Shown here: one piece after another, positions 5,237 through 64,000 of the stretch
Numbering within the stretch: position 1 is the stretch's first letter
Layout of the letters: every line of letters begins with the position of its first letter
Assembly (NCBI GenBank): GCA_944323075.1
Contig: CALURC010000008.1
Coordinates: forward strand, 1-64,000
Length of the DNA stretch: 64,000 bases
DNA from: an uncultured Alistipes sp.
Lineage (GTDB): Bacteria; Bacteroidota; Bacteroidia; Bacteroidales; Rikenellaceae
Direction: 5' to 3'
The notes under the pieces: generated by a model
Database searches by the model: none
What the model was told of the DNA's origin: nothing
Seen by the model: the letters and a program-made list of their open reading frames with translations, nothing else
Program-made: the position numbers and the translations under genes

Positions 5237-5265
5237 TCATAAGGGAATAATAAACGATAAAAGCA

Positions 5266-5304
5266 AAAAGAGGAGAAAGCTATTTGATGTCTTTCTCCTC
5301 TTTT
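5266..5304 (+). terminator. Terminator after the OmpP1-like gene
   Basis: AAAAGAGGAGAAAG, an 11-nt loop and CTTTCTCCTCTTTT form a perfect 14-bp stem ending in a T run. Confidence 0.9.
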
Positions 5305-5433
5305 GTATTTCAGAAAAAATCATGAATCGTCACCTCTGGATAAGGATACAAAAACATATTATCTCTATGAGTGACTTTATATTGCAATTAAAGAGACACT
5401 TGTGTTTTTCACCAAATGAACATTTCCCTCAGG

Positions 5434-6087: not shown

Positions 6088-6096
6088 AGTTCGATA

Positions 6097-7029: not shown

Positions 7030-7123
7030 AAGAGCTCAATCGTATTTGTATTCTGCGTAAAGGTACAAAATTTTCGGGAACAGAATCTTTTTTATAAAGA
7101 GATGAACAACCGTATCATTCTAC

Positions 7124-7155
7124 GAAAAAACGGAACCTTTAACAGGTTCCGTTTT
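7124..7155 (-). terminator. Terminator of rplS
   Basis: On the minus strand AAAACGGAACC-TGTTAAA-GGTTCCGTTTT gives an 11-bp stem followed by further T residues. It lies 28 bp downstream of the rplS stop and separates rplS from the kinase gene. Confidence 0.9.
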
Positions 7156-7183
7156 CATATTCATTTTGAGTGATCGGTATGCT

Positions 7184-7555
7184 TTATTTTGCAGTAACGA
7201 CTCTCTTTTTCTCTTTAATACGAGCTTTTTTACCGGTCAGACCGCGCAGATAGTAGATACGTGCACGACGAACGACACCTACTTTATTCACTTCGATGTG
7301 GTCGATGTGAGGAGAGTAGAGCGGGAAAATACGCTCAACGCCGATTCCGTCAGAAATTTTGCGGATCGTAAACATTTTAGTGATACCACTACCTTTAATT
7401 TGAATGACCGTACCTCTAAAACTTTGAAGACGCTCTTTGTTTCCTTCGACGATTCTGTACGTTACAGTGATCGTATCACCACTTTTGAACGAAGGAACAT
7501 CCGGTTTCACCCACATAGAATCCTGGGCGATTTTAATCAACTTGTCCATTTTCAA
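7184..7555 (-). CDS. rplS: 50S ribosomal protein L19
   Basis: A 123-residue protein matching L19, the large-subunit protein at the 30S-50S interface. The family core is plain: FKSGDTITVTYRIVEGNKER, then QSFRGTVIQIKGSG, FTIRKISDGIGVERIFPL and a basic C-terminus (GKKARIKEKKR). The length is normal. It is a single-gene unit here, with its own promoter (7627-7657) and terminator (7124-7155). The usual neighbours in other phyla (rpsP, rimM, trmD) are absent. Confidence 0.98.
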   Translation of the reverse strand: MKMDKLIKIAQDSMWVKPDVPSFKSGDTITVTYRIVEGNKERLQSFRGTVIQIKGSGITKMFTIRKISDGIGVERIFPLYSPHIDHIEVNKVGVVRRARIYYLRGLTGKKARIKEKKRVVTAK

Positions 7556-7626
7556 TCATATTAATTTATAGTGGGAATATTACGGGCCCCTACGTCCTCG
7601 CAAGAGATTCCTGCACTTTGGGAGCA

Positions 7627-7657
7627 CAAAGGTAGTGCTTTCTCCCGAAAAAACAAT
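7627..7657 (-). promoter_or_regulatory. rplS promoter
   Basis: TACCTTTG on the minus strand (plus 7627-7634) with ATTG, one mismatch from TTTG, 19 bp upstream (plus 7654-7657). The leader would be about 65 nt and holds no obvious structure. Confidence 0.6.
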
Positions 7658-7675
7658 ACGTTCCTATAAATTTTG

Positions 7676-7708
7676 TATCTAAAGAGCGATATTTTCGCTC
7701 TTTAGATA
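7676..7708 (-). terminator. Hairpin terminator of acnA
   Basis: A perfect 14-bp stem (TATCTAAAGAGCGA against its complement) with a 5-nt loop, 8 bp past the acnA stop. The T run after it is weak, so termination is likely but not certain. Confidence 0.7.
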
Positions 7709-7715
7709 CTTCTCA

Positions 7716-9959
7716 TTAGCAATTCAGTGCGGCTCCTGCCTTGAACCATCCGATCTGGTGCTCGTTATAGGTGTGGACCGCTTCGAACAATTCGGAAGTT
7801 CCATCACTGTGTTTGAGCGTTACCGTCATCCGGCTTCCCGGTGCAAACGTTGCCAGACCCGTTACCGAGATCCGGTCGTCCTCACGAATCCGATCGTAGT
7901 CTGCCGGATTGGCAAAGGTAAGGGCCAGAACACCTTGTTTTTTGAGGTTTGTCTCGTGGATACGGGCAAACGATTTGACCAAAACGACTTTGACATTCAG
8001 AAAACGTGGCTCCAGTGCGGCATGTTCACGGGAAGAACCTTCTCCATAGTTCTCTTCAGCCACAACGATCGATCCGATTCCCTGGTTCTTGTATTGTTTG
8101 GCAACAGAAGATACGGCATCGTAACTTCCATCTAAAGTATTCAGCACACAATTCGTCTTACCGTTGAACCGATTGACGGCCCCCATCAACAGGTTGTCTG
8201 AAATGTTTTCGAGGTGACCGCGGAAACGAAGCCATGGACCGGCCATCGAGATGTGGTCGGTTGTACATTTTCCTTCGGCCTTGATCAGCAAACGCAGATC
8301 AGTAAAATCTTTCCCATCCCATGCAGCGAAAGGTTGAAGACGTTGCAGACGATTCGATCCCGGAGCGATAACGACTTCTCCAGTGAAATTATCATCCGGT
8401 GCAACGTACCCATTGTTCTCGACGGCAAATCCGGCTGCAGGAAGTTCATCGCCTTTAGGCTCGTCGAGCATAACCCACTCACCATCGTTATTTTGCAGTT
8501 TATCTTTCAGCGGATTGAACGTCAGATCTCCGGCAATAGTCAGAGCCGTAACCAATTCGGGTGATGCGACGAATGCATGTGTGTTCGGATTGCCGTCCGC
8601 ACGTTTGGCAAAGTTACGGTTAAACGACGTAACGATTGAGTTCGGACGAGTATTATCCTTTTCGTGGCGGGCCCACTGTCCGATACAAGGACCGCAAGCG
8701 TTGGTCATCACGACTCCACCGATCTCCAATAACGGTTGAAGAATTCCGTCGCGTTCTGCCGTGTAACGTACTTGCTCCGAACCCGGATTGATCAGCAGTT
8801 TCGCCTGCGTTTTCAATTTTTTATCGATCGCTTGGCGTGCAACAGATGCGGCTCTTCCCAAATCCTGATAAGAGGAGTTCGTACATGATCCGATCAGACC
8901 GACTTCCATCTGTTGAGGAATCCCCTTTTCACGTACCCACGCACCGAATTCGGAAATCGTATGGGCGGCATCCGGAGTAAACGGACCGTTGATATAAGGT
9001 TCGAGTGTCGAAAGATCGATCTCGATTACGCGATCATAATATTTTTCGGGAGCAGCTTCAACTTCGGCATCAGCACGCAGCGAACCACTCAACTGTTTGG
9101 CCACATCGGCCACATCGGGACGTCCCGTTGCCCGCAGGTAGCGGTCCATCGATTCGTCGTATGCAAAGAGAGAGGTCGTTGCCCCGACTTCTGCTCCCAT
9201 GTTGCAGATCGTTGCCTTTCCTGTCGCGGATAATGATGCTGCACCCTCTCCGAAATACTCCAAAATAGCATTAGTTCCTCCTTTAACCGTGAGGATTCCA
9301 GCTACTTTCAGGATGACGTCTTTCGGAGAAGCCCAACCATTAAGTTTTCCAGTCAGTTTGATACCGAAGATCTTGGGCATTTTCAGCTCCCAAGGCATAC
9401 CTGCCATCACATCGACGGCATCGGCTCCCCCGACACCAATGGCAACCATACCCAAACCACCGGCATTAGGAGTATGAGAGTCTGTTCCGATCATCATACC
9501 CCCCGGAAATGCATAGTTTTCCAATACGACCTGATGAATGATACCGGCACCAGCACTCCAGAATCCGATTCCGTAACGGCTGGCCACGCTTTTAAGAAAA
9601 TCGTATACCTCCCGGTTTGTTTCGTTGGCGGTAGCCAGATCGGCAGCAGCACCCCGATCGGCCTGAATCAGGTGATCGCAATGTACCGAAGCGGGAACGG
9701 CCGAACGGTCACGTCCTGCATTCATAAACTGCAGCAAGGCCATCTGCGCCGTTGCATCCTGCATGGCCACACGGTCTGGACGGAAATTGACGTAATCAGT
9801 ACCCCGGACAAACGGCTTGGCCTCGTTTTCGTCATAGAGATGGGCATACAAAATCTTTTCTGCGAGTGTCAGCGGACCTCCTTTTACAGTCCGAGCACGC
9901 TCTACCTTTTCTGCGAACGTTTTATACACGTTCCGGATCATTTCAATATCAAATGCCAT
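7716..9959 (-). CDS. acnA: Aconitate hydratase
   Basis: A 747-residue aconitase that interconverts citrate and isocitrate in the cytoplasm. The 4Fe-4S ligands are visible as Cys359 (GSCTNSS) and Cys422/Cys425 (ACGPCIG). The substrate loop GTDSHTP is at 158-164 and the swivel-domain signature [15 protein letters not shown] is near 640. The length fits the mitochondrial-type enzyme found in Bacteroidetes better than the ~890-residue AcnA/IRP form, so the symbol is family-level. The gene stands alone, with a TATCTTTG box upstream (10031-10038) and a hairpin downstream. Confidence 0.96.
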
Positions 9960-10030
9960 ATCTGTTGTATTTTGTGATTATTTCAACTCGAAAAAAAATA
10001 AGTCCATTGAAATCATAGAACTTCAACGGA

Positions 10031-10038
10031 CAAAGATA
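10031..10038 (-). promoter_or_regulatory. acnA promoter -7 box
   Basis: TATCTTTG on the minus strand, 71 bp upstream of the acnA ATG. No matching -33 TTTG is present. Confidence 0.5.
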
Positions 10039-10067
10039 GCGATTTTGTGATAAACCGTTAGGATGTT

Positions 10068-10652
10068 TTACTGTTTTGTCTCCGGACGATCGGTCTGTGC
10101 GGATTGTAAGGCCGTATGATGCAATATTTCGCTTCTTTTCCGATCGCGAAATTCAAGAGCATGTTTTACAAAAGTTTCCGGATCATCACAACTGATAATA
10201 AATTGATCTTCATAAATATCCTCAATCATAACCAGATGCTTGCGGTCCGAAGCATAAACCTTATACATGGTCCACTCCATGAAATCGAAATAATATCCGT
10301 AATAGCCCCAGAAACCATAACTACCGACCAAAGGCCAAAGCCGTTTAAATTCGTTTTTGCCAAAAACACGTATTTTCTCTATGTCCTCGATATGAATCCG
10401 TGTCATATCGACAATACAATGCACCTCAACGACTGAATCGTCAAGCAAAACATAAAGCGGAATCGACAAGATGTAAAGTATAATGACACAAAACAGGAAA
10501 AAAAGCCCCCATGCAGAGAGATAGGCTCCACTCAACACAAAACCGACACTGACCGACAGCAGTACAACAATTGTCAGAATAACGAAAGTGATGCGATGGC
10601 TGCGGCGATCGTAATGATATTTATATTTTTCCGGAGTCATGCTCTTCTTCAT
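10068..10652 (-). CDS. Hypothetical membrane protein, two helices (194 aa)
   Basis: The N-terminus is basic (EKYKYHYDRRSHR) and is followed by two membrane helices at about 22-45 and 49-68. A soluble C-terminal domain of about 120 residues resembles a PH-like fold (VEVHCIVDMTRIHIEDIEKIRVFG). The pattern of two helices then a beta-rich domain recalls bacterial PH-domain membrane proteins, which is inference. Its ATG starts 1 bp after the stop of the small membrane gene at 10654-10938, so the two are almost certainly translated together. Role unknown. Confidence 0.8.
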   Translation of the reverse strand: MKKSMTPEKYKYHYDRRSHRITFVILTIVVLLSVSVGFVLSGAYLSAWGLFFLFCVIILYILSIPLYVLLDDSVVEVHCIVDMTRIHIEDIEKIRVFGKNEFKRLWPLVGSYGFWGYYGYYFDFMEWTMYKVYASDRKHLVMIEDIYEDQFIISCDDPETFVKHALEFRDRKRSEILHHTALQSAQTDRPETKQ

Positions 10653-49118: not shown

Positions 49119-50513
49119 TTAATATCCGTCCTGAGAAAGCTGGGTACTTATTGGACGAGGATTCTCCGATGCTGGAAATTCTTTCTGGAAAAGCTCTTTT
49201 CCTAACGGTTTAATCTCACTTCCGTCCAGTTTACTCGGATCATATCCCAGCTCACACTCGAACGGCATAACATAAGCCAATACGGACCATCCCCAAAAAC
49301 GTTTCAGACCAAGACCTTCCCCACTCTCTCCGTTATAAAATTCCCGAGTTACATCATTGCATTTATAAACCAGATCCAGTGTTTTACGAGCCAACTCGCG
49401 AGCCTCATCCATATATCCGTAGTCGATCAGTCCGTGCATGATCATATAGTTGGTCGGAATCCACGTTGTACCACGCCAGTTGCATCCCCAATCACGAATG
49501 TCTCCCTGTACGTAATCAGGCTCCGTCTGTGCATAACATGCTACCGGATATTTTGTCCAGAACTCTTCAGGATTGATCAGATGCTCTTTTACTAACCGCT
49601 CAGCCCGACGAGGAGGTACGATACCTGTCCACAAAGGAATAAATCCGGCTACGGACTTCACTTTAACCAATTCACCCGTATGCTCATCGCGATCATAATA
49701 GAATCCATCTTCTTCATCCCAAAAGATCGTATTGATCTTATCGGCTAAAGCCGTTGCACGTAGGTGGAATTTCTTTGCATCTTCTGTTTTCCCAAGTTTG
49801 ATTGCGATCTGTTCCATCGCTTGCAGCTCCCGATAAATATAACAAGCCAAATCTACACCTTCGAACCGGAATTCGTCCAACCGTCCTGCACGACTGATCT
49901 GGTTATCCATACCACTATGATCAGAACTGTTCCATACCGGTAATCCGTTCCGGTCGAAATCGCAGTAACGCAGCCAGTAATCGATACTCAGAATCAACTG
50001 TTCATAATAGGAAATCGACTTGAATGCGGAACCGATTTGCATTCTTCCCCGATCGCCACGCTCTTCGAGCCATGTGTAATCACCCGTTTGCCGTGAACCC
50101 AGCTCTGCAATCTGCGCCAAGAAAGGCTTAAAATGTTGCCGTTCCCGTTTGTCGATCAACGTTCTTGAGATGAAACCATTGACGCACTGTTGATTCAAGA
50201 AGCTTTTCAAATTCGTAAAACAATAATCCGGAATACCGAAATAACTCATATACAGATTCTCGAAATAGAGATCCCAATCATACATTTCATGATAGGCATA
50301 TCCGGTCATCAATTTTCGATTATCCGGCTCATAGAGAACAATTCCCCGTGTCGCAATATCGTGATTCACCTCATCGATCCGGTTCAAAAAGGCCTCCTTA
50401 TCACCGATGTCGTATTGCCGCATAACCTGATGCATCAATTTTTCATTCGATTGAGCCCGGGCACCCGAACATAAGACACAGCAACCCGCAAGTAAAAAAT
50501 ACAAAAATTTCAT
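49119..50513 (-). CDS. Secreted (alpha/alpha)6 glycoside hydrolase, GH63/trehalase-like
   Basis: A 464-residue protein with a signal peptide ending near GARAQ. The catalytic domain carries the GH63/GH37-clan landmarks AYHEMYDWDLYFENLYM, WNSSDHSGMDNQ, RGTTWIPTNYMIMHGL and EFYNGESGEGLGLKRFWGW. Enzymes of this clan invert alpha-glucosidic bonds (mannosylglycerate, trehalose, glucosyl-mannose). The Asp in MYDWD and a Glu late in the domain are the likely catalytic pair. The substrate is unknown. A dyad at 50553-50576 in its leader suggests control by a sugar-responsive regulator. Confidence 0.88.
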   Translation of the reverse strand: MKFLYFLLAGCCVLCSGARAQSNEKLMHQVMRQYDIGDKEAFLNRIDEVNHDIATRGIVLYEPDNRKLMTGYAYHEMYDWDLYFENLYMSYFGIPDYCFTNLKSFLNQQCVNGFISRTLIDKRERQHFKPFLAQIAELGSRQTGDYTWLEERGDRGRMQIGSAFKSISYYEQLILSIDYWLRYCDFDRNGLPVWNSSDHSGMDNQISRAGRLDEFRFEGVDLACYIYRELQAMEQIAIKLGKTEDAKKFHLRATALADKINTIFWDEEDGFYYDRDEHTGELVKVKSVAGFIPLWTGIVPPRRAERLVKEHLINPEEFWTKYPVACYAQTEPDYVQGDIRDWGCNWRGTTWIPTNYMIMHGLIDYGYMDEARELARKTLDLVYKCNDVTREFYNGESGEGLGLKRFWGWSVLAYVMPFECELGYDPSKLDGSEIKPLGKELFQKEFPASENPRPISTQLSQDGY

Positions 50514-53299: not shown

Positions 53300-54481
53300 G
53301 TGGAATATTTGAATCTATTATACAACGATCTGATAGAGTTAGGGATAGCACATCCCTATCTGGCTTTAGGACTTAATACGATCCTGATCGCACTCTTTTT
53401 CATTCAGCTCTATTATTATTTGTCCGTATACGGTTCTATCCCCCATTTCCGCAACAATCGTGGAATTCGGAAAGACATGCCGACTCCTCCGATCTCCGTT
53501 ATCATCGTAATTCGTGAGAATTCATATTATTTCATCGAAGAGACTCTTCCCTTACTGCTACAACAACAATACGATGCATTTGAAATTGTTCTTGTTGATT
53601 GCAGTTATGACGATGAAATTGCCGAAATATTAGCTGAAAAGAGGGCCGAATACCCCGAATTGCTACACGTAACCCGATTCAAGCAACAACTGCAACACGA
53701 GCACAGCATCAAATTAGCATTAACCGTGGGAATCAAGGCTGCACGATACGAGCACCTGCTTTTCACAACACCTGACTGCGTTCCTACATCAGACAAATGG
53801 ATAGCATTGATGGCCAAAGGATTTATCAGCGGCGACATCGTCATCGGATACTGCGGTATAGAACAGAAAAAAGGAGGAGCCAACCGGTGGATCCGCTGCA
53901 GCCGATTCATCTCATCAGTTCGCTATCTGGCCTCTGCAGTACGTGGATACACCTACCGCGGAACATTGTACAACATCGGATATACCAAATCTCTCTATTT
54001 CGGGAATAAAGGATTTACCCATTTGAATATGGGTATCGGAGTGGATGATCTATTCATACAAAAAATTGCTACTCCGGACAACGTCAGTGTAATCATGAAT
54101 CCCAATGCTACCGTACGACAATTTCAGTATGGAGGGATCGGTTGGTGGTACGCACTTTGCAAATATTTCGGATACGCTTACCGTTATTACCCGGGAAAGG
54201 CCAAACGGGCCCTCCGATCCGAATTGGTTTTCCGTTTCCTCTTTTTCGGAGCAGTTGCCGGATCGATTATTGTGCTGCCTCTGCTATGGATGGCAATTCC
54301 ATTGTTTTTCCTTTTTATACGGTTACTACTCGTTGAACTGACTCTCCGTAAAATAGGGAAACGACTCGGTGAACACAAATTTTTGGGAACTTACGTCTTA
54401 TACGATATCTGGGCTCCCATCGGTGGACTAATAATCGGCATTGACCGTATGTTTCGTCGCAACAAAGCAATATGGCGCTAG
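53300..54481 (+). CDS. Membrane-bound GT2-family glycosyltransferase
   Basis: A 393-residue protein from the GTG at 53300 (V-EYLNLLYNDL); a TTG at 53255 is also in frame. An N-terminal helix (about 18-42) is followed by a GT-A domain: PPISVIIVIRENS, FEIVLVDCSYDDE and LLFTTPDCVPTSDKWI in the donor-binding region. Two C-terminal helices follow (about 300-345). No DxD motif is plain, TPD being the nearest. It probably adds a sugar to a lipid or envelope glycan. Its last 10 bp overlap the sigma factor gene, so the two are co-translated. Confidence 0.88.
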   Translation: MEYLNLLYNDLIELGIAHPYLALGLNTILIALFFIQLYYYLSVYGSIPHFRNNRGIRKDMPTPPISVIIVIRENSYYFIEETLPLLLQQQYDAFEIVLVDCSYDDEIAEILAEKRAEYPELLHVTRFKQQLQHEHSIKLALTVGIKAARYEHLLFTTPDCVPTSDKWIALMAKGFISGDIVIGYCGIEQKKGGANRWIRCSRFISSVRYLASAVRGYTYRGTLYNIGYTKSLYFGNKGFTHLNMGIGVDDLFIQKIATPDNVSVIMNPNATVRQFQYGGIGWWYALCKYFGYAYRYYPGKAKRALRSELVFRFLFFGAVAGSIIVLPLLWMAIPLFFLFIRLLLVELTLRKIGKRLGEHKFLGTYVLYDIWAPIGGLIIGIDRMFRRNKAIWR

Positions 54482-55047
54482 AAGATTACATCATAGCCTC
54501 CGATCAACAACTGATCGAACGGGTCCTGGATGGAGATTCATCGGCATTCGAGCATCTCTTCAATCGGTATAGGGATTCGATCCATCAGCTTTATCTCCAA
54601 AAAACAGGAGGTAATATCGACGATTCGGACGATCTGCTGCAAGAGACCTTCGTCAAAGTGTATTTGAATCTGCAACGTTACTCAGCCCAATATACCTTCG
54701 GACAATGGATCTACACCATCGCTCGTAATACGTTTATCGATTACGTGCGCCGCAAACGGGATGACACTGTCCCGATCGACAACCTTCGTGAAACCGGAGG
54801 GCTCTCGACATGGAGTGAACTAAATCCGGAAGAACGCATGATCACCCACCAGAATCGAGCCCGTATTGAGGCTTTTCTCGACCGCATGCCACCTCGTTAT
54901 AAAGAGCTGATCGAATTGCGTTTTTTTAAAGAATACTCTTATGAAGAGATAGCCTCACACTTGAATCTTCCGATGGGTACTGTAAAGACCCAGATCCACC
55001 GAGCCAGAGAGCGGCTCTGCAGATATATTTTAAATGATAACGAATAG
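54472..55047 (+). CDS. ECF-type RNA polymerase sigma factor
   Basis: A 191-residue sigma-70-family protein. Region 2 covers about 20-95 (AFEHLFNRYRDSIHQLY, DLLQETFVKVYLNLQRY, FGQWIYTIARNTFIDYVRRKR). Region 4 is at about 130-185 (MPPRYKELIELRFFKEYSYEEIA, MGTVKTQIHRARERL). Regions 1.1 and 3 are missing, as in ECF sigmas. The ATG overlaps the GT2 gene by 10 bp. No anti-sigma gene follows, the next feature being a tRNA on the other strand, so control may be by level or by a distant partner. Confidence 0.94.
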   Translation: MALEDYIIASDQQLIERVLDGDSSAFEHLFNRYRDSIHQLYLQKTGGNIDDSDDLLQETFVKVYLNLQRYSAQYTFGQWIYTIARNTFIDYVRRKRDDTVPIDNLRETGGLSTWSELNPEERMITHQNRARIEAFLDRMPPRYKELIELRFFKEYSYEEIASHLNLPMGTVKTQIHRARERLCRYILNDNE

Positions 55048-55149
55048 ACCCTTTGCAAACAGTAGCGTCGATTCTGTTTTCTTACTCTATTGGAGAGTCT
55101 TTCAAAACAGATAACATCAGTTACCCGCATCTCATACTATGAAATAGAA

Positions 55150-55178
55150 AAAGCTTCTGCCTTTCAGGCAAAAGCTTT
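55150..55178 (-). terminator. Terminator of tRNA-Glu
   Basis: On the minus strand AAAGCTTTTGCC-TGAAA-GGCAGAAGCTTT pairs fully, with one G-U, and is followed by TTCTATTT. It lies 10 bp past the tRNA. It may also stop transcription from the sigma gene on the plus strand. Confidence 0.75.
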
Positions 55179-55187
55179 ATGTTCCAG

Positions 55188-55259
55188 TACTGTATAAGGG
55201 AATCGAACCCTTATTTGTAGACTGAGAATCTACCGTCCTAACCGTTAGACGAATACAGC
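55188..55259 (-). tRNA. tRNA-Glu (anticodon CTC)
   Basis: A full 72-nt cloverleaf on the minus strand. The acceptor stem GCTGTAT/ATACAGT has a G1-U72 wobble. The D stem is GTC/GAC, the anticodon stem GTAGA/TCTAC with loop TTCTCAG gives CTC, the variable loop is AAAT, the T stem AAGGG/CCCTT holds loop TTCGATT, and the discriminator is A. CCA is not encoded. CTC reads GAG only, so a TTC isoacceptor is expected elsewhere. It has its own consensus promoter and terminator. Confidence 0.92.
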
Positions 55260-55268
55260 ATCACAGCA

Positions 55269-55299
55269 CAAAGATAGGTAAAAAAAATTGACCTGCAAA
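55269..55299 (-). promoter_or_regulatory. tRNA-Glu promoter
   Basis: Minus-strand TTTG (plus 55296-55299), a 19-bp spacer and TATCTTTG (plus 55269-55276), directly upstream of the tRNA: an exact consensus fit. Confidence 0.85.
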
Positions 55300-55328
55300 T
55301 TTTTTTGTAAAAGGTTCGATTTAAAAAA

Positions 55329-55365
55329 TTCGGACCGGAGGAAACGTACAATCCTCCGGTCCGAA
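55329..55365 (-). terminator. Terminator of the lipoprotein cluster
   Basis: TTCGGACCGGAGGA, a 9-nt loop and its exact complement give a 14-bp GC-rich stem followed on the minus strand by a T run. It ends the 55391 gene. Confidence 0.9.
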
Positions 55366-55390
55366 AAAATATCGATTTTTGAACTATCTG

Positions 55391-57694
55391 TTACCAGTTG
55401 ATTTTAGCCCAACGGGTATTCCATACACCCCAAGTTCCTATACCATATGCATAGGCAATATATTGTTGCTGATCAGGACGAATATGACCTTGACGGTCTC
55501 CACTCCATCCGCAATTATGGCAACCGGGCATAATATTATCCCGTATTTCGGCAATCTTTTCAAATTTCAATCCGTCATCCGACTGCCACAGCACGATATA
55601 CCCATTGGCTGTCATACGCGATGCCGTATTGATAGCTTGAAATTTACCGATATCATCACGGTATTTTACATCAGAGTGATCAGCACCCTCAATACCACCT
55701 TTATCGATAGCTGTTCCATGATGAACCAGACTACCGGGCCAATTAGGATCATTCGTACTTGCCGTAGCCACCCGGGTAGTCACAGAACCGTCATTCCATG
55801 AGTAATAGAAATAGATGGTCTCATCTAATATAACAATAGAAGGTTCCCCTGCACCGAATTGTGTAGGTGTTCCATCAAACACAACAATTGGTTCAGGATT
55901 TCCACCCCATCCATTACCGTTCCATTTTTCCCACGGACCGTCCGGATTATGACTTCGTGCTACATATGCATAATTTTCCGTCATTCCCGGATTCTCGGTC
56001 GACGTATAGCCAATATAATAATACCCATTCCAATAGGCAGCCCCGGGATCACAAACAGAAAAATGATCCGATGAAAATTCTGTGGGCAAAAGTGTCATGA
56101 TCTCTTCAGACCAGGTACGTCCGCCATCGGTCGAATGCTGATATGAAGCCTGATCCCAGAAAATTTCACCAGTCGTCTTTTCTTCCATCCATTGAGCTTT
56201 CCAGTTACCGTTAATCGGAGTTCCATCTCGATAACTGACTACTCCATTGACATTTCCTTCTGCCAGCCATACGCCTGATTGCTGTGTTTTCCCATCGGAC
56301 AACACCCACAAATAGGTTCCTGCCGGGAATTTATCCTCCTTACTCAACGTTAAATTGGCTCCATCCTCATACTCATCGAATCGATCTGTCGCGATAGGCT
56401 CTTGGCTTACCACTTCATCATACGTATTTCCATTCCAAGAATATAAACTCAGTGTCAACCCACAAGAACTCCCATTCCAGTTAGGACTAGTTACCGAAAC
56501 ACCCCAAAAGGGAACATCAGCAGTAAATTTTTGAGCTACCGTTTTATCGCCAAAAATCCCTTCTGCTGTCGTTGCCCCATCTTTATTGTATAGATCGTTA
56601 TACTCGCCGTATGCCCCACCTGGCGCAGCAAACCAAGCATCGATCGACCCATCATCATTAATGATAATAGAAGGACCATAGCGATAAGCACCTCCGGAAT
56701 AGATATCCCAGCCGCTATCCTCCAAGGTAAATACGCACACTGAATTTTGAGAGATCACCAGCTCAGCACTTAGGTAATCGCCCTGAACCTGTTCTTTACT
56801 TTTTGCTGTAATTTTTGCCTCTCGCATGCTGTTTTCGCCGTTAGCCAACACTTCGAAATAGAGAGAATCTTCTACCAAAACTTTAGACGATTCAACAGGA
56901 ATAATCCACGATTTGGCGCTTTCTGGTGTGATTTCAATTTCATAATCCACCGTACTTTGCAAAGAGACACCTATAGTTTCACCCTTTGACGCTGCTTTAA
57001 GGCTTTCTTCAGAAAAATAAAGCGCACTAAAAACATCCTGCGAAACTGTTACGGTATCAGCTAAATAACTACCTTGAACCGGCTCCTTACTTTTAGCAGT
57101 AATTTTCGCTTCACGCACATCATTTCCGTCATTTTCCGATACTTCGAAGTAAAGCGAATCTTCCACTAAACCTTTCGTTGACTCGACAGGTTTGATCCAC
57201 GATTGCGCATTTTCTGGAATAATTTCAATTTCATACTCTACTGTACTTTGCAAAGCCAAAGCAATAATTTCCCCTTCCGATGCAGGTTTTATACTTTTTT
57301 GAGAAAAAGCTAGCAGATGATCTGCAGTCCATGTCACTTCAATATCTTCCGATACGGACGACTGATCCGATGACGCGACAATCGTAATAACAGCTGCCAA
57401 GTGATCATACGGGGAAGCATTTTCATCTGTTGTTATCGTAATTCGATGAGTACCTTTCTCCCCCTGCGTCGGTGAAATACGGCACCATGAAGAAGCCGTG
57501 CCATCCGAATCCTTTACCGACACTGTCCATGAAACATTTGTTGTAAAAGTAAACGTTCCTGTTCCTGTAATCGGTAGTGTAACTTGCGATTGCCCTCCAA
57601 TCTCTATCTCTGGAACTATTTCAGGCTCTTCATTTGTCTTATCGCACGAATACACGCACAACAACAAAAAAGATAAAAACAATAATTTTTTCAT
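55391..57694 (-). CDS. Surface lipoprotein: three Ig/BACON domains, beta-sandwich, propeller (767 aa)
   Basis: A lipobox (LLLCVYSC, Cys17) begins the chain. Domains in order are a BACON-like domain (about 28-125: FTTNVSWTVSV, SPTQGEKGTHRITI), two closely similar Ig/BACON repeats (129-219 and 226-316), a beta-sandwich (about 318-470: LTLSLYSWNGN, FPAGTYLWVL) and a C-terminal propeller-like domain (about 490-767: PWEKWNGNGWGG, FGAGEPSIVI, YFYYSWNDG). The last resembles GH43/GH32-clan or sialidase-type blades, but I see no certain catalytic triad. BACON domains are linkers or mucin/glycan binders in Bacteroidetes. Last of four leftward genes; a terminator precedes it. Confidence 0.85.
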   Translation of the reverse strand: MKKLLFLSFLLLCVYSCDKTNEEPEIVPEIEIGGQSQVTLPITGTGTFTFTTNVSWTVSVKDSDGTASSWCRISPTQGEKGTHRITITTDENASPYDHLAAVITIVASSDQSSVSEDIEVTWTADHLLAFSQKSIKPASEGEIIALALQSTVEYEIEIIPENAQSWIKPVESTKGLVEDSLYFEVSENDGNDVREAKITAKSKEPVQGSYLADTVTVSQDVFSALYFSEESLKAASKGETIGVSLQSTVDYEIEITPESAKSWIIPVESSKVLVEDSLYFEVLANGENSMREAKITAKSKEQVQGDYLSAELVISQNSVCVFTLEDSGWDIYSGGAYRYGPSIIINDDGSIDAWFAAPGGAYGEYNDLYNKDGATTAEGIFGDKTVAQKFTADVPFWGVSVTSPNWNGSSCGLTLSLYSWNGNTYDEVVSQEPIATDRFDEYEDGANLTLSKEDKFPAGTYLWVLSDGKTQQSGVWLAEGNVNGVVSYRDGTPINGNWKAQWMEEKTTGEIFWDQASYQHSTDGGRTWSEEIMTLLPTEFSSDHFSVCDPGAAYWNGYYYIGYTSTENPGMTENYAYVARSHNPDGPWEKWNGNGWGGNPEPIVVFDGTPTQFGAGEPSIVILDETIYFYYSWNDGSVTTRVATASTNDPNWPGSLVHHGTAIDKGGIEGADHSDVKYRDDIGKFQAINTASRMTANGYIVLWQSDDGLKFEKIAEIRDNIMPGCHNCGWSGDRQGHIRPDQQQYIAYAYGIGTWGVWNTRWAKINW

Positions 57695-57717
57695 TTTAAG
57701 TTCTTTTTTTAGGTAAA

Positions 57718-57745
57718 AAAGGGGGAAATAAATATTTCCCCCTTT
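57718..57745 (-). terminator. Terminator inside the lipoprotein cluster
   Basis: AAAGGGGGAAATA-N2-TATTTCCCCCTTT is a perfect 13-bp stem, followed on the minus strand by TTTACC and later T runs. It lies between the 57777 and 55391 genes and should reduce transcription of the latter. Confidence 0.8.
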
Positions 57746-57776
57746 ACTTTAAGGATAATATCTGGACTTCCAAATA

Positions 57777-59735
57777 CTATTCAAGCACTTTGATATACAT
57801 ACCTTTACTTTGCGAATAAGTCAAGAATTGTCCATTACCTTTCACGGTTCCATCACTTGAGACAACATAACGAGGTTTCGCAGCATTCGGATACATATAT
57901 TCAATCACACATTCAGGCTCTTTTGAAGAGAACGAAACTCCGTCAGAAGCCGAAATTGTGTACATCTGGTTATTTTGGATATAAGTAATCACTATTTCAT
58001 CTCTGTCCTCATGATACTTAGCATCTATTGACAGAGAAGAACCTAACGTTTCATCAAAAGTATAACATTTCTGAGCTGAGAACATATTCATAGGCCACAA
58101 ATCATCCGAAGCATCAGCTGTTTGAGTCATCAGATTATAGCCCTGCAAATAATAAACGCGAATAGTCCCTTTATGCTCAACCAATGAAACAGCCGGGGTA
58201 TTCTTCCAAACAGTAGTACTTGTATAAGATCTCCACTCTTCTTTTGTCCCGTTCCACATCTGATACGGTCCATACGGTTTTTCACTACGTGCTATACAAA
58301 TATTCTGATCTCCTGCTTTATCAAATGTAGCATAATAATACTTACTTCCTTTTGTAATAACCATATCAGATGGAGAATAGCTTGCTACCCAATCATCATT
58401 CAATGAGAATATAGTTTTCTGATCGCTCCAAGTCTTACCACCATCTTTTGAAGTTTTATAAGCAGCTCCAGAAATACCACCACGACTCGATCCAATATAA
58501 GAGAACTGCCATTTAGCCACATCATTTGTTTTTCCACCGTTTTTGTAATTGTCATAACCGGCTACCGTAGCATTTGCACTTGCAGGGAAATACCAAACAC
58601 CTGAATGAACTTTATCAGAAGAAAGCTCAACCAAATAGTCACCAGCGGCAAATTTCGAGGAACCGATCAGCTCGATATCATTCTGATTATCATTATATTC
58701 CACAGTATTCTCATACACAGCACCTCCAGCGATAGTTGTACTGTAATCAGTATCCCACATATACAGCTTAACCGTCATAATACCACCATTACCATTTTCA
58801 GTAGGTGTATCATTACTCCACGTACAACCGGCACCATTCGTTAGCTTAAGATTAGACCATGCAGTCGTCATAACCATATGTTGCGCAATAGGTCCATCAT
58901 GCAAATCCCACGGTTGATGTGCACCTGCATTTACGTGTGTTTGAACATCACCATTCTGACTTCCCGTTGTATAAAGATAGAAAGCATCTAAATTTCCTGC
59001 CTCATCCATAACAACAGAAGGTACTGTACATCCTGAATTTAATCCATCTATGATATAATATCCTACATCCTCTCCTCCTGCTTGAGTAATCTCAACCAAT
59101 TGCGAAAGATCGGCGGGATTACCTTCTTCGTCAACTTCCGTAATTTGAACAAAACCAGATCGAGAAGTCAACATTGGTGTCGGCTCCACTTTAATAGATA
59201 CTGTATAATTCTCTAAAGAAGAAGATTTATCTGTTACTACGGAAAGCCACTCTGAATACAAAGTATCAATTGTTACAGAATATGCACGATTTGTTACAAA
59301 TTTAATATCCACGATACCCCCTTCAGCACCAATATTATAAACAGTTGAATCAAAATCTTGCACTGGCAAAGTCGTCTGACTAACAGTCAAGACTTTGGTT
59401 TCAGAACCTGACGTAATCGTTATAGTTGCCACTCGATCATCATATCCACCGTTCTCCAACAAATCAAGTGTTAAATAGTGGTGACCAGCTTTACCGCTTT
59501 GTGGAGTTATTGTCAACCACTCATCAGCTTCAGCAGTAGGAACGGCATAATCTACTACAGCCGTCCAATCGGTAGCAGTAGAAAAACCTATCACTTTGAT
59601 ACCACCTTCTTTAGGAGCATCATATTCAGACAAAGGAACCTTAAAAGTCAAAACCTCTGTTTCTTCCTCTTCATTACATGCCCCAAATACAAGTACAGCA
59701 GCACAGCAGAGCATGGTATAGAAAAATTTCTTCAT
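57777..59735 (-). CDS. Surface lipoprotein: two BACON domains, beta-sandwich, propeller (652 aa)
   Basis: A lipobox (VLVFGAC, Cys20) and an acidic stretch EEEE. BACON 1 is about 30-120 (STATDWTAVVDY, WLTITPQSGKAGHHYLTL) and BACON 2 about 125-220 (TNRAYSVTIDT, SEWLSVVTDKSSS). The beta-sandwich is about 225-400 (MTVKLYMWDTDYSTTIAG, KFAAGDYLVELSSDKVHSGVWYF) and the propeller-like part about 420-652 (ICIARSEKPYGPYQMWNG, DASDDLWPMN). It parallels the 767- and 530-residue neighbours but lacks FGAGEPS, reading TPAVSLVEHKG there. Probably exposed on the surface; function unknown. Confidence 0.85.
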   Translation of the reverse strand: MKKFFYTMLCCAAVLVFGACNEEEETEVLTFKVPLSEYDAPKEGGIKVIGFSTATDWTAVVDYAVPTAEADEWLTITPQSGKAGHHYLTLDLLENGGYDDRVATITITSGSETKVLTVSQTTLPVQDFDSTVYNIGAEGGIVDIKFVTNRAYSVTIDTLYSEWLSVVTDKSSSLENYTVSIKVEPTPMLTSRSGFVQITEVDEEGNPADLSQLVEITQAGGEDVGYYIIDGLNSGCTVPSVVMDEAGNLDAFYLYTTGSQNGDVQTHVNAGAHQPWDLHDGPIAQHMVMTTAWSNLKLTNGAGCTWSNDTPTENGNGGIMTVKLYMWDTDYSTTIAGGAVYENTVEYNDNQNDIELIGSSKFAAGDYLVELSSDKVHSGVWYFPASANATVAGYDNYKNGGKTNDVAKWQFSYIGSSRGGISGAAYKTSKDGGKTWSDQKTIFSLNDDWVASYSPSDMVITKGSKYYYATFDKAGDQNICIARSEKPYGPYQMWNGTKEEWRSYTSTTVWKNTPAVSLVEHKGTIRVYYLQGYNLMTQTADASDDLWPMNMFSAQKCYTFDETLGSSLSIDAKYHEDRDEIVITYIQNNQMYTISASDGVSFSSKEPECVIEYMYPNAAKPRYVVSSDGTVKGNGQFLTYSQSKGMYIKVLE

Positions 59736-59774
59736 AATTGTTTGCTGTTTATAGATTCGATATTATTTAAAAAG

Positions 59775-59819
59775 AGAAGGAAAGTACCCTCGACTAATTC
59801 AAGGGCAACTCCTCCTTCT
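59775..59819 (-). terminator. Weak intergenic hairpin in the lipoprotein cluster
   Basis: On the minus strand an imperfect hairpin (GAAGGA with TCCTTC, inner CCCT with AGGG) is followed by TCTTTTT between the 59825 and 57777 genes. It could attenuate transcription; support is weak. Confidence 0.35.
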
Positions 59820-59824
59820 ATTAT

Positions 59825-61417
59825 TTATTGCGCAAAAGAGAACGAACTCATATACGTTTGCCAGTTAGCTTGCGATTCTCCGAATTGATATAGGATCTTA
59901 TGAGGAGTAGAGGCCTGTATATGACCTTCTTCGTTAACTATGAAGCGAGGATATTTTGCCCGAACTCGAGTATTACTATATATTGTTCCGACATGAGACC
60001 AACCGGAAACGCCATCAGCCGACTGCCAAATTGCAAAATAACTGTTTACCTCGTTGTTGTTTACACTATGAAGAGCGACGAAACTATTCAACTCTTCTGC
60101 ATATACAACAGAGGCTCCATCCATAGCAGTTGTTGCAAATGCACTACGGTCCATTACCAATCCCTTATCCGATAAATTAGCCGGCCAATTTTCATCTGTA
60201 GCATCTGCTGTCATAAGATATGTATTTAGCGCCCCATCTTCAGTCGTACAATAAGTATAGTACAGATAAATTACTCCGTCTTTTATAACTAAGCTAGGTT
60301 CTCCAGCTCCAAAATAAAGTTCTGGCTCGGATATATCAACACTAAACAATGGAGCTGGATCTCCACCCCAATCTGTTCCGTTCCATTTTTCCCAATCTAT
60401 GGCATCCTTCGTCTCTGCTCTTGCAACGAAAATATAGTTATCCGTCTTTTCACTAAAGGTTTCTGAACCTTGATAAGCCATATAATAATAGTTGCCTGCT
60501 TTAACTACAGAGCCACACTTAGCATAATACTTATCCGCCTTATCTGATGTAGGAGCAACTGTTGGATCATCAGGTTGTTCTGTCCATTCAGCATTAATAT
60601 CACTTGATGAAGCAGTGTTATACTTAATCTGTCCAGAAAAGCCTAACTCCGCAGGCGAGGTATACTGAACTGCATGCCGGAAACCTTCATTTCCTGTTGT
60701 TTTTTCACCTCCCTTATACCATACTCTAGCCTTATCACCTCGGCCACCGCCCCAAAATCCAGGCTCATTCTTACTGACACCACTTACGTCTAAACGTTGA
60801 CCATACCAAAGATATTCACCTGCTGGAAACTTAGCATTTCCTGTCGCATCGCCATATCCACTATTAGTTACATTTATTTCCAACCACGTATTATCCGGAT
60901 AAGGAGCAAAATCAACAGTTCCCAGCGGAGTTTCAGCAATTGTAGAATTATAATCTCCAGCCCACTGATATATGGACACAGTCATATAAGCTGGGGCACT
61001 CCATCCCGGACATTCAACAGCCCATCCATAAAACGATTCGTCAAATGGATAATAAATAGCACCAGCATCTGTACCTGATTGTCCCAAACTATATGGTCCT
61101 CCTCCACCATCTCCGCTATCTAACCTCACACGTGCAGGTAAAGAAGCATCCGAAGTACCTCCGGCAGTTGTAAACCATGCAGATAGTGTACCATCTGCAT
61201 TCGCAAATACCGTTCCTGCATAACGGAAATTTCCGTCCGAAGGAGTATAAATAGGTTTCCCGTCTGCATTGATCACAGGAACTCCAGCAGCTATTACTTC
61301 GTCAGGGCGCGCATACTTATCCGAAATAGGTTCCGGATCAGGCATACTTGCACAACTACTCAATACCAGCAGCAATAGCACCGCAAACGATTGTGTAATG
61401 TAAGTAAACTTTTTCAT
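59825..61417 (-). CDS. Surface lipoprotein: beta-sandwich plus propeller, no BACON domain (530 aa)
   Basis: A lipobox (LLLVLSSC, Cys22) is followed at once by the shared domains. The beta-sandwich is about 50-215 (MTVSIYQWAGDYNSTIAE, KFPAGEYLWYG) and the propeller-like domain about 230-530 (IDWEKWNGTDWGGDP, FGAGEPSLVIKDGVIYLYYTY, DENWPANL). It is the shortest of three paralogues and most like the 767-residue protein in the propeller. Followed by a weak hairpin and the 652-residue gene. A carbohydrate-active or carbohydrate-binding role is inferred from fold resemblance only. Confidence 0.85.
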   Translation of the reverse strand: MKKFTYITQSFAVLLLLVLSSCASMPDPEPISDKYARPDEVIAAGVPVINADGKPIYTPSDGNFRYAGTVFANADGTLSAWFTTAGGTSDASLPARVRLDSGDGGGGPYSLGQSGTDAGAIYYPFDESFYGWAVECPGWSAPAYMTVSIYQWAGDYNSTIAETPLGTVDFAPYPDNTWLEINVTNSGYGDATGNAKFPAGEYLWYGQRLDVSGVSKNEPGFWGGGRGDKARVWYKGGEKTTGNEGFRHAVQYTSPAELGFSGQIKYNTASSSDINAEWTEQPDDPTVAPTSDKADKYYAKCGSVVKAGNYYYMAYQGSETFSEKTDNYIFVARAETKDAIDWEKWNGTDWGGDPAPLFSVDISEPELYFGAGEPSLVIKDGVIYLYYTYCTTEDGALNTYLMTADATDENWPANLSDKGLVMDRSAFATTAMDGASVVYAEELNSFVALHSVNNNEVNSYFAIWQSADGVSGWSHVGTIYSNTRVRAKYPRFIVNEEGHIQASTPHKILYQFGESQANWQTYMSSFSFAQ

Positions 61418-61472
61418 AATTAAAACTAGTTAATGAACATTTAAATTTAGTAATTTTTAGTATTTGTTTTCG

Positions 61473-63209
61473 TTATTGGTAGACATAATTTATCGTAACC
61501 CACCGAACAGGATCTGCTCTAAACGACTCAAGCATCTCTTTTGCAGTCGGATTCCCATATATATTTTCAGCTATGCCTTTCGATTGATTCGCTATATCAA
61601 GTTGCATTACATTTTCAAAACGACGAATTAAATCCAGAGGAATCTGATTTCCTTCCTCCACATGTTTACGCATAAGATAGGTCAAATTAGCCTCTCTGCA
61701 ATAACAACGAATTGCAGTCACCATCTGTTCCAACACGGCCAACTGCTCTTTATTCTCTTTCAGATAAGAAACATAAGGCTCTATATCTATCTTATCCGAA
61801 GCGTTTTTATAATGCTTTATCGCCTCTAACAATTTTTCTGAACTTGTCGCACACCGCAATTCTATATCTTCAAAGAACCACGGATCAAGCATTTCACTCT
61901 CTGTCGTCATAAACAGACTACGCCGCGTTGATTTCCAACTCGGCGATGGAGCAACCGCCCCTTCGATATGCGCAATGTTCCATTTATGATAGACTTCAAT
62001 CCCTGCTAAATTATTCGGCAGACTGCGGAAACGCCATGTCGCATCCCAAGGGAATACAGACAATCCAACTGCACTCGACTCCCATGCGGCCAGCACATCC
62101 TTCGATGCAGGACCATATGGTTCCACCATCTCTTGCAACACTTGCTCGGTAGCTATGTCAAGATTCTGCATTTTCGCAGCAGCCATCAATAAATTAGGAT
62201 CGTAGCTATCTGGCACCATCCCAAAATACTCTTTCACTCCAGCAATCTGGGACACATGACCTACTGCCTCCAACTCCTCTGCAACCAACCGTGGTGCTGC
62301 AATACGAGTCAACGGAGCCACCTCTTCGTTAACGCTGGCCATAAATATCTCTCCGACGACTGGAATATTCCGTTCTGCACAAAGCCGAACAGTATTTTTA
62401 AACCACACATCCACAGGACGGCTCAACTGGACCTCCGCAATATTGGAATGTAGGAAGAGACCAAAATTTTCAGTTGGCAACGAAGGTATCATTGCATAGA
62501 TCTGTCCCGCCGAAATCTCCCATGGCTCCCACCAAACCATACCATTGGGACTCAATTCAGCCCAAGTATCAGTCAATGTCTTTAAAAACAAGGGAATCCG
62601 CTCGGCCAATGGAATATCCCGATCGCTCGCTCCATTTCCGAACTCATTGCCAACCCATGCATCCTGATCGAATGTATAAATCTCTATATCATCCAACTCG
62701 GGGACCTCTTGTTTCAAGCGTTTTAACAATGAAACATATTTATCGACAATCTCTTTTTTCTGAATACTATTTTTCTCCGTAGCGACATCGATCAGCTCCG
62801 GAGTCAATATTTTATAGAGAGAATCCACCCGTGGAGCTCCGAAATGGAATAGGGTCCGGAAACCCCATTGCTTGGCTATTCGGGCACGGTCTTTGATGTT
62901 TTTCAGACGCACTGCAATTTTTTCGGGATCTCCAATTCCATCTACATAAAGAATATCCTCCAAATTCAGAGGTTCATCTGCAGGGCGGGCTCCCCATGCG
63001 ATATTCAGCTGAAGGGTATTGAAGCCCATATCTTTTAAGGCCTGCATTTGCGCACTGTCATAACGAATATCGGGGTCGGACGGATTACCGACAATAGCAA
63101 TCTTGTACTTGAAAGGGTCATCTTGTCGTTCACAACAAGCCCCTACCAAGAACAACAAAGCCAACAAAGCCGCCCACTTTAATCGAAGTAAAGCTTTACC
63201 CATACACAC
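61473..63209 (-). CDS. Lipoprotein, probable TIM-barrel glycoside hydrolase (578 aa)
   Basis: A lipobox (LFLVGAC, Cys25); an ATG two codons in (63203) is equally good. The mature protein begins KIAIVGNPSDPDIRYDSAQM, followed by MQALKDMGFNTLQLNIAWGA. That pattern and the run of alternating strands and helices suggest a (beta/alpha)8 barrel. Possible catalytic acids lie in IYTFDQDAW, GMVWWEPWEIS and IPVVGEIFMAS. The C-terminal 150 residues are helical. I cannot name the GH family. First gene of the leftward four-gene lipoprotein cluster, with a TATCTTTG box at 63388-63395. Confidence 0.8.
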   Translation of the reverse strand: MCMGKALLRLKWAALLALLFLVGACCERQDDPFKYKIAIVGNPSDPDIRYDSAQMQALKDMGFNTLQLNIAWGARPADEPLNLEDILYVDGIGDPEKIAVRLKNIKDRARIAKQWGFRTLFHFGAPRVDSLYKILTPELIDVATEKNSIQKKEIVDKYVSLLKRLKQEVPELDDIEIYTFDQDAWVGNEFGNGASDRDIPLAERIPLFLKTLTDTWAELSPNGMVWWEPWEISAGQIYAMIPSLPTENFGLFLHSNIAEVQLSRPVDVWFKNTVRLCAERNIPVVGEIFMASVNEEVAPLTRIAAPRLVAEELEAVGHVSQIAGVKEYFGMVPDSYDPNLLMAAAKMQNLDIATEQVLQEMVEPYGPASKDVLAAWESSAVGLSVFPWDATWRFRSLPNNLAGIEVYHKWNIAHIEGAVAPSPSWKSTRRSLFMTTESEMLDPWFFEDIELRCATSSEKLLEAIKHYKNASDKIDIEPYVSYLKENKEQLAVLEQMVTAIRCYCREANLTYLMRKHVEEGNQIPLDLIRRFENVMQLDIANQSKGIAENIYGNPTAKEMLESFRADPVRWVTINYVYQ

Positions 63210-63387
63210 GTTTCAACAGTTCAATTTCTCCTAACAAATAGCCACCAACTCACTGTTTCACAAGGCGGAAGGTACAAACTACACCTTTCCGGACGCTTAG
63301 CAAAACGTCTCCTGGCAAACTATTTTTCTATTCGAAACACACCTTTAATTATATATACGCATCCCAAAAATATGTATAGACGCGTAA

Positions 63388-63395
63388 CAAAGATA
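63388..63395 (-). promoter_or_regulatory. Candidate -7 box of the four-gene lipoprotein cluster
   Basis: TATCTTTG on the minus strand in the 391-bp divergent region (63210-63600), giving a leader of about 170 nt. A second box, TATTTTTG, lies at plus 63365-63372. Neither has a clear -33. Nothing else recognisable lies in this AT-rich interval besides the rightward box at 63570. Confidence 0.45.
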
Positions 63396-63569
63396 ATAAT
63401 TCGACTATAAATAAAAAATTTTTTCTTGATTTATTTTGCATTTTCAACCATAATTTTTTCGTGAAAATACTACTCTGTCTTCGAAAATGCGCTAATCTTT
63501 TTTACAAGATCACGACAAAAAAACGACCTCGAATATCAAAAAAGAGACTATAGATCGTAAGCTCCTTTA

Positions 63570-63577
63570 TATTTTTG
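63570..63577 (+). promoter_or_regulatory. Promoter -7 box of the GH106-like gene
   Basis: TATTTTTG on the plus strand, 23 bp upstream of the ATG at 63601. Confidence 0.45.
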
Positions 63578-63600
63578 TAAAAAATCAACGAACACCTATT

Positions 63601-64000
63601 ATGAAAAACTTCATTACACCGCTCGTCGGAATAGTATTGGCTACGGTTTCATTTGCACAAAACCCGGCCGACTTCAAGAATCCGCCACAAAAATTTCGTC
63701 CTGAACCGCTTTGGTTTTGGAACAACACCACGATCTCCCGCGAAGAAATCGATGAACAAATGACCGGATTCCGAGACCAGTGTGGATATGGAGGTTTTGC
63801 GATACTCCCTTTCGGACAGAATTTGGCCCCGAAATATCTTACCGAGGAATACTTCGATTTATATAAATACACAGCGGAACGTGCTGCAGAAATGGGGTTA
63901 ACACTTTCATTATACGATGAATACGGATTCCCAACAGGAAGTGGGGGTGCAATCAATGCAGACGGGATACCACGGTTTCATAATCGATTTCCCAGTCTAA
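63601..64000 (+). CDS. GH106-like glycosyl hydrolase, 5' part (runs off the window)
   Basis: 133 codons are open to the window edge. A signal peptide (KNFITPLVGIVLATVSFAQ) is followed by FRPEPLWFWNNTTISREEID, then GYGGFAILPFGQNLAPKYL, AAEMGLTLSLYDEYGFPTGS and GGAINADG. Trp-Phe-Trp-Asn near the start, the (beta/alpha)8-type spacing and DEYGFPTGSGG are characteristic of GH106 alpha-L-rhamnosidase-like proteins. Family assignment is from motif memory. It is divergent from the lipoprotein cluster and may belong to the same glycan locus continuing past 64000. Confidence 0.8.
   Translation, partial: MKNFITPLVGIVLATVSFAQNPADFKNPPQKFRPEPLWFWNNTTISREEIDEQMTGFRDQCGYGGFAILPFGQNLAPKYLTEEYFDLYKYTAERAAEMGLTLSLYDEYGFPTGSGGAINADGIPRFHNRFPSL

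Follow-up and report, generated by a model that had tools for sequence, protein, structure and literature searches.

A five-gene cassette encoding three lipoproteins with predicted propeller heads and unequal BACON stalks, bordered by two tRNA genes in an uncultured Alistipes

A row of lipoprotein genes between two tRNA genes

The window analysed in this study comprises 64,000 bp from an uncultured Alistipes sp. and corresponds to the first 64000 bases of contig C8 (301,080 bp) in a genome of 2.54 Mb and 19 contigs (G000). Four minus-strand open reading frames (ORFs), already singled out in a preliminary description whose coordinates were confirmed here, follow each other in the order P0004, P0003, P0002 and P0001, with intergenic gaps of 55, 89 and 82 bp (Table 1). 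P0004 was listed with a GTG start, an ATG two codons further (63203) being equally likely. A divergent GH106-family gene (PF17132, 118.2 bits for a cut-off of 29) and the tRNA genes flanking the resulting quintet were absent from that description. Beyond tRNA-Gln, housekeeping genes were identified by eye as tsaB, radC, rnc and fabF. As noted before, no SusC/SusD is visible in the window, and this extends to the entire contig: a whole-genome search recorded 13 TonB-plug and 4 SusD_RagB matches, none of them on C8. An adjacent SusC/SusD pair, by which polysaccharide utilization loci (PULs) are recognised, was thus not found for the cassette on this contig.

The proposal that P0001, P0002 and P0003 form a paralogous lipoprotein array was upheld, their C-terminal parts (hereafter heads) being homologous in all three combinations (P0001/P0003, 29% over 493 positions, E 2e-48; P0001/P0002, E 5e-16; P0002/P0003, E 3e-14). 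Likewise, Pfam and a local BACON hidden Markov model (HMM) agreed on the ladder of zero, two and three immunoglobulin-like (Ig)/BACON domains in P0003, P0002 and P0001, respectively. Behind the lipobox, which was recognised by pattern, PF13004 reached 58.2 bits in P0001 and 65.2 bits in P0002 (cut-off 25). Stalk length is nearly, not wholly, fixed across orthologues. The local HMM detected no BACON domain in 5/5 P0003 orthologues, while two were present in 4/4 P0002 orthologues (the second one being weak in genomes G001 and G005, 0.023 and 0.0022). P0001 displayed three in G000 and G004, two in G001, and two in G002, where the start is uncertain. According to PMC11216935, BACON stalks act as spacers for C-terminal parts that bind or catalyse, and PULs contain only 38% of BACON domains; a missing SusC/SusD pair beside BACON proteins would therefore not be unusual.

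Table 1. Coordinates of the genes, domains and borders of the cassette (window positions unless indicated)
Feature	Position	Strand	Description
tRNA-Glu (CTC)	55187-55259	minus	Left border of cassette
P0001	55391-57694	minus	767 aa lipoprotein; three BACON domains and head with full conserved constellation
P0001 head	55394-56734	minus	Predicted GH43/117/130-type propeller with nested sandwich; GH117 and GH130 chains matched by profile
P0001 beta-sandwich insert	56159-56617	minus	153 residues
P0001 BACON 3	56747-56926	minus	Local HMM and third Pfam stretch
P0001 BACON 2	57038-57217	minus	Local HMM
P0001 BACON 1	57332-57505	minus	Pfam, local HMM
P0002	57777-59735	minus	652 aa lipoprotein; two BACON domains and most diverged head
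P0002 beta-sandwich insert	58476-58961	minus	
P0002 BACON 2	59082-59267	minus	Local HMM
P0002 BACON 1	59376-59537	minus	Pfam, local HMM
P0003	59825-61417	minus	530 aa lipoprotein; head, no BACON stalk; conserved polar positions lost in part
P0003 beta-sandwich insert	60638-61159	minus	
P0004	61473-63209	minus	578 aa, lipoprotein-like N-terminus, unnamed family
GH106-family gene, start	63601-64000	plus	Divergent; 734 aa, ends at contig position 65805; PF17132
tRNA-Gln (CTG)	contig 66047-66118, beyond window		Right border of cassette

Fold and conserved residues of the heads

Among PDB chain sequences, the profile of the heads matched 3p2n (GH117, E 2.5e-8), and a profile that included clostridial relatives matched 5ta7 (1.4e-7), 3p2n (1.3e-6) and the GH130 chain 9fj8 (2.2e-4). 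The GH117 matches were partial (profile positions 45-163 or 15-164 of 296, E 1.4e-7 and 1.3e-6). GH43 chains were matched as well, and the earlier choice of GH43-type propellers for comparison was sound. Since the profiles match GH117, GH130 and GH43 chains, the heads likely adopt the five-bladed propeller of the GH43/117/130 superfamily. Five blades are described for the wider GH43/62/32/68/117/130 superfamily in PMC9728383 and for GH117 in PMC5849685. At the family level, the P0001-P0003 heads passed no Pfam or NCBIfam model. Best scores with PF04616 (GH43) were 21.8 bits, obtained by head copies on contig C16 and in genome G207, for a cut-off of 32.2, and no match was reported for P0001-P0003; with PF04041 (GH130), none was reported for these three at E up to 1. 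Six of the seven clostridial relatives scanned with PF04041 were below the cut-off or without match, the seventh (L025) reaching 30.4 bits for a cut-off of 26. More generally, Pfam at E up to 1 detected no family in P0003 or P0004. Membership of the heads in GH43 or GH117 was rejected, the GH43 score being below cut-off and a glycine standing in place of the GH117 base Asp97. P0001 is probably an exo-glycosidase of a family of GH43/117/130 type, apparently outside Pfam and NCBIfam.

The heads had been described as sharing a beta-sandwich and a propeller-like domain. Both are predicted from sequence, and the sandwich is located inside the first blade rather than beside the propeller. This blade contains an insert of 152-174 residues in Bacteroidales heads, compared to 3-15 (median 4) in 57 clostridial rows, where the propeller is uninterrupted and the first blade reads straight on. 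The insert is called a beta-sandwich here on the strength of its sequence pattern, which suggests this fold. Motif FGAGEPS was found in two of the three heads, as announced. The motifs presented as common to all were each found in two, with a variant in the third: WxKWNG (YQMWNG in P0002), LYxW (P0001 and P0002; IYQW in P0003) and FPAGxYL (P0001 and P0003; FAAGDYL in P0002).

Clostridial relatives of the head numbered 86, of which 80 loci were kept; trimming and reduction of redundancy, with two proteins that lacked the start motif being dropped, left 77 propeller pieces, and 57 of these were aligned and counted for conserved residues. Numbered from the first residue of the head, D194, D229, E297, D355, H406, N407 and H417 were identical in 57/57 clostridial rows. 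All seven were kept in six of the seven P0001-type heads, i.e. P0001 of G000, G004, G001 and G002 and the C16/C28 copies of G000 and G004. By contrast, P0003 of the window has lost D229, D355, H406 and N407 and kept E297. Its orthologues kept E297 in 5/5 and D229 in 3/5 cases and lost H406/N407 in 5/5, D355 being kept in a single one, the second G001 copy. In P0002 orthologues, E297, H406 and N407 were lost in 4/4 cases. A midpoint-rooted tree of 27 rows displayed three ortholog groups (support of 100/100 for the P0002 type, 100/100 for the P0003 type and 94/90 for the P0001 type), with long P0002-type branches that were flagged by a warning. Because the groups are separate and residues were lost in P0003 and P0002, leaving P0001 alone with the polar constellation, the initial idea of one and the same head held at three heights was abandoned.

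Some of these residues have counterparts in characterised families. D229 is paired with the Asp within 'EDPR' of GH130 chain 9fj8, taken to be the proton donor of GH130. E297, present in P0001 and P0003 and lost in P0002, aligned with residue 252 (Asp) of chain 3p2n (HMMER). This chain is presumably Zg4663, with which its residue numbering agrees. The GH117 set given for Zg4663 in PMC13118177 consists of Asp97, Asp252 and Glu310; the alignment covers the first two of these positions and stops short of the third (Glu310, or a His next to it), a domain-swapped dimer being a further mark of GH117. The head family thus appears to hold pieces of two known residue sets, those of GH117 and GH130, and neither of them whole.

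Distribution of the cassette and of its parts

The quintet was complete in three of nine genus genomes (G000, G001 and G004); the quartet first described recurs there together with the GH106 gene. Gene order was the same in G004 (P0001-P0004 and GH106 being 82, 84, 67, 84 and 86% identical) and in G001 (60, 35, 51, 76 and 71%). In G005, P0002, P0003, P0004 and GH106 occurred together (35, 57, 72 and 64%) and no P0001 was found beside them. Both flanking tRNAs were common to the three quintets, with one additional gene between GH106 and tRNA-Gln in G004; other genes adjoined tRNA-Gln in G002, G003, G005, G007 and G008. P0004 was recorded in 4/9 genus genomes and the P0001-type head in 5/9 (in G005 on a separate contig), and neither occurred in the 191 other family genomes drawn.

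G+C content of the row was 41.8%, against 45.2% for window positions 1-55000, and was below all 39 sliding 7.8-kb segments. Proof of an island by base composition was rejected, the lowest segment having 41.85% and the signal being weak. Between 63210 and 63600, no complete promoter of Bacteroidetes type (TTTG, 17-23 bases, TAnnTTTG) was found. Window positions 54000-64000 had no near match among phages, three scans of viral contigs gave no relative of the head or of P0004, and neither P0004 nor the P0001 head had a plasmid match. In G001 (L107, from 15458), genes that look phage-like by eye begin right after tRNA-Glu, by which the cassette is bordered on the left. An MGH1-like/GH63-type glycosidase gene is located some 5 kb to the left of the row (49119-50513), and one is also found left of the row in G004, as judged from its N-terminal sequence.

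P0004 orthologues were 71-84% identical in three genomes, and a further one (66%) occurred in G221, from another family. P0004 had been proposed as a TIM-barrel hydrolase candidate; similarity to a TIM-barrel family was not found with Pfam, NCBIfam or hhalign. It had no match in Pfam or NCBIfam and none convincing among PDB sequences, and in hhalign the GH106, GH99-like, GH36, DUF4838 and TDALGR sets obtained probabilities of 0.1-1.0, compared to 0.7 and 1.4 for the controls. The G221 homologue lies near GH106-like and GH36-like genes, and visual inspection of this 31.8-kb contig, the ORFs of which were tested only in part, revealed no SusC/SusD. 'TDALGR'-type proteins are also encoded near it. 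Another such protein, GH99-like (L182, G000:C16:366001-386000, 4835-6916), occurs near the sixth stalked head of the Alistipes genome.

Genome G000 contains six heads, i.e. those of the row and additional ones at C16:400 kb (no BACON domain, 56% to P0001), C1:177 kb (two BACON domains) and C16:375 kb (three). The unstalked P0001-type copy (G000:C16:398416-401072; L106:8415-11072) is followed after 6 bp by a gene for a DUF4493 lipoprotein, and the same pair was observed in G004 (L113).

At the level of the order, 27/393 genomes drawn were matched by the head profile. Near full-length heads occurred only in G000 and G207, the sandwich alone was found at five places in 4/393 genomes, and the remaining 21 genomes displayed short propeller matches (E 3.0e-8 to 8.6e-4). 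In a phylum draw the sandwich was restricted to 1/395 genomes, the window's own, with six copies, which disfavours a wide spread. Four proteins, from G213, G221, G551 and G496, contain the sandwich as an insert, and this set aligned with a protein having a sub-threshold GH99 match (22.3 bits for a cut-off of 33). In G496, the sandwich is also nested in a SusD (L142/L197, C282, 303-2519), between PF07980 positions 8-61 and 111-297, and the preceding ORF looks SusC-like by eye.

G207 belongs to another family and its P0001-type head is 47% identical to P0001. There, a hybrid two-component regulator, a GLAA-B plus beta-lactamase protein, the head, a PKD protein, SusC, SusD and a GH110-like gene form a row; a GH110A chain was matched with E 3.9e-79, and two genes are of GH110 type. 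The GLAA-B protein (1631 aa; L193, C4:62001-82000, 5597-10492) combines GLAA-B (GH110-type) domains, a beta-helix, a beta-lactamase-type serine hydrolase and a further C-terminal part without family assignment. Homologues in ordinary SusC/SusD loci with known substrates had been named beforehand as the finding that would speak against an undescribed system; as regards the locus, G207 provides one, and as regards a known substrate it does not. As a relative of P0001 sits in an ordinary sugar-uptake cluster, the cassette is best regarded as an offshoot of known biology.

Among the clostridial relatives, the propeller gene abuts an apparent major-facilitator transporter gene (by eye) in L014 and L015, a possible uptake partner. 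The proteins of L058, L062, L080, L082, L087 and L089 (about 543-548 aa) begin with the propeller and have no obvious signal peptide, and this subgroup may for that reason be intracellular.

Interpretation and comparison with known systems

The reading that we favour, and to which we give even chances, is that of a glycan cassette enclosed by tRNA-Glu and tRNA-Gln, without SusC/SusD of its own and built from PUL-type parts. P0001 would be tethered to the membrane and act as an exo-glycosidase, or else as a related enzyme resembling phosphorylases, whereas P0003 and P0002 would be decayed, non-catalytic paralogues binding the same or a related glycan, from which the GH106-family enzyme might remove alpha-L-rhamnose. 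The products would be imported through a SusC/SusD pair from another part of the genome or in some other way. In terms of geometry only, the stalks would set P0001 at the greatest distance from the membrane and P0003 closest to it.

Several observations weigh against this reading. Parts of the cassette are separable, since in G006 a GH106 homologue (58%) lies one gene from tRNA-Gln without P0004 or heads, and G002 has a P0001-type head and no P0004. The constellation is not universal among P0001-type heads either, H406 being missing from the G207 head within its SusC/SusD locus. The site of GH117 Asp97 is Gly (YRYG) in 57/57 clostridial rows and 7/7 P0001-type heads; the catalytic set of the head therefore differs from the GH117 one, and the head may lack catalysis or perform it in another manner. 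Surface export of the lipoproteins is uncertain. The lipoprotein export signal is given in PMC5080379 as a polar or basic residue and then an acidic run after the Cys; P0002 (C-N-E-E-E-E) resembles it, P0003 does not and P0001 has an acidic pair at +6/+7.

The Gly that replaces the GH117 general base throughout the head family also suits another explanation, possible though rather improbable in our judgement, where all heads are non-catalytic glycan binders, comparable to surface glycan-binding proteins (SGBPs) or SusE/F, and the residues conserved in P0001 serve to retain a metal or ligand. SGBPs are often encoded in the region beside SusC, and the G207 head adjoins a PKD lipoprotein and SusC. 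Moreover, BACON stalks carry binding C-termini too, according to PMC11216935. Yet seven scattered polar residues that are identical in 57/57 clostridial relatives look more like an active site than like that of a lectin; among these relatives, fusions to SLH or Big_2 domains occur, and one protein scores above the Pfam cut-off for GH130. Lipoprotein assemblies around SusC/SusD (utilisomes) are a known alternative for such proteins, according to PMC7618045.

Conversely, all three heads might be active with different specificities, P0002 and P0003 having relocated their catalytic residues. That every paralogue group is maintained across species, and that P0003 keeps E297 throughout and D229 in most orthologues, would fit; the consistent loss of H406/N407 in both groups, and of E297 in P0002, together with the long P0002-type branches, as under relaxed constraint, makes this unlikely. 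Still less credit is given to the view that the lipoproteins are adhesins, or have some other surface role without glycan breakdown, next to an incidental GH106 gene. Lone P0001-type copies do occur away from glycosidases, on C16 of G000 (beside the DUF4493 lipoprotein) and in G002 (neighbours by eye), but the divergent GH106 gene stays with the row in 4/4 genomes having P0004, a GH106-like gene is near P0004 in G221 too, and the G207 head is located in a GH110/SusCD locus.

A broader version of the favoured cassette reading is doubtful. It would make of the P0001-type heads a new GH43/117/130 family shared by rumen Clostridia and Bacteroidales, and of the sandwich, acquired by the head in Bacteroidales, a portable grip domain, nested also in SusD and GH99-like proteins, with the ability to enter loops of glycan-handling proteins whose folds are unrelated. 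In this genus the head would have been tripled; one cutter and two decayed binders, held at graded heights on 3, 2 and 0 Ig-like spacers, would then constitute a SusCD-free capture-and-trim array. Stalked surface lipoproteins, propeller glycosidases and decayed kin are known; what the present variant adds is a sandwich nested in the propeller, a particular set of residues and a cassette bounded by tRNAs and free of SusCD. The cassette was not named in the literature searched, which excluded subscription papers and is no proof of its being unpublished.

Should the P0001-type head be an enzyme, an activity open to testing could be assigned to dozens of rumen clostridial proteins now without annotation and to several from Bacteroidales, with mutants suggested by the conserved residues. 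The sandwich, nested in three unrelated hosts (propeller, SusD and GH99-like), would be a binding module missed by linear domain annotation. One intact and two decayed paralogues on unequal stalks offer a natural test of decayed glycosidases as capture arms outside SusCD loci.

Among the closest known systems, the clostridial single-propeller proteins of ruminant guts (L011-L090) are 44-53% identical to the P0001 head over aligned positions. They share its conserved residues and differ by the lack of a nested sandwich and by other N- and C-termini (SLH, Big_2 or short leaders). GH117 (alpha-1,3-L-neoagarooligosaccharide hydrolases) is a profile relative with a shared acidic residue at the Asp252 site, from which the heads depart by Gly in place of the base Asp97, by the nested sandwich and the BACON stalk, and by matches over part of the length only. 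GH130 (mannoside phosphorylases/hydrolases) has in common the Asp of EDPR, whereas P0001-P0003 are secreted lipoproteins with a nested sandwich. The neighbouring gene matches the family model PF17132 of GH106 alpha-L-rhamnosidases and is far under the equivalog cut-off of their BT4145 type (84.4 against 1300 bits). Finally, compared to Sus-type PULs with SGBPs on BACON or DUF1735 spacers, the cassette has no SusC/SusD and no hybrid regulator was recognised in it, but both contain BACON-stalked lipoproteins with a glycoside hydrolase neighbour, and a homologue of the head resides within one such PUL in G207.

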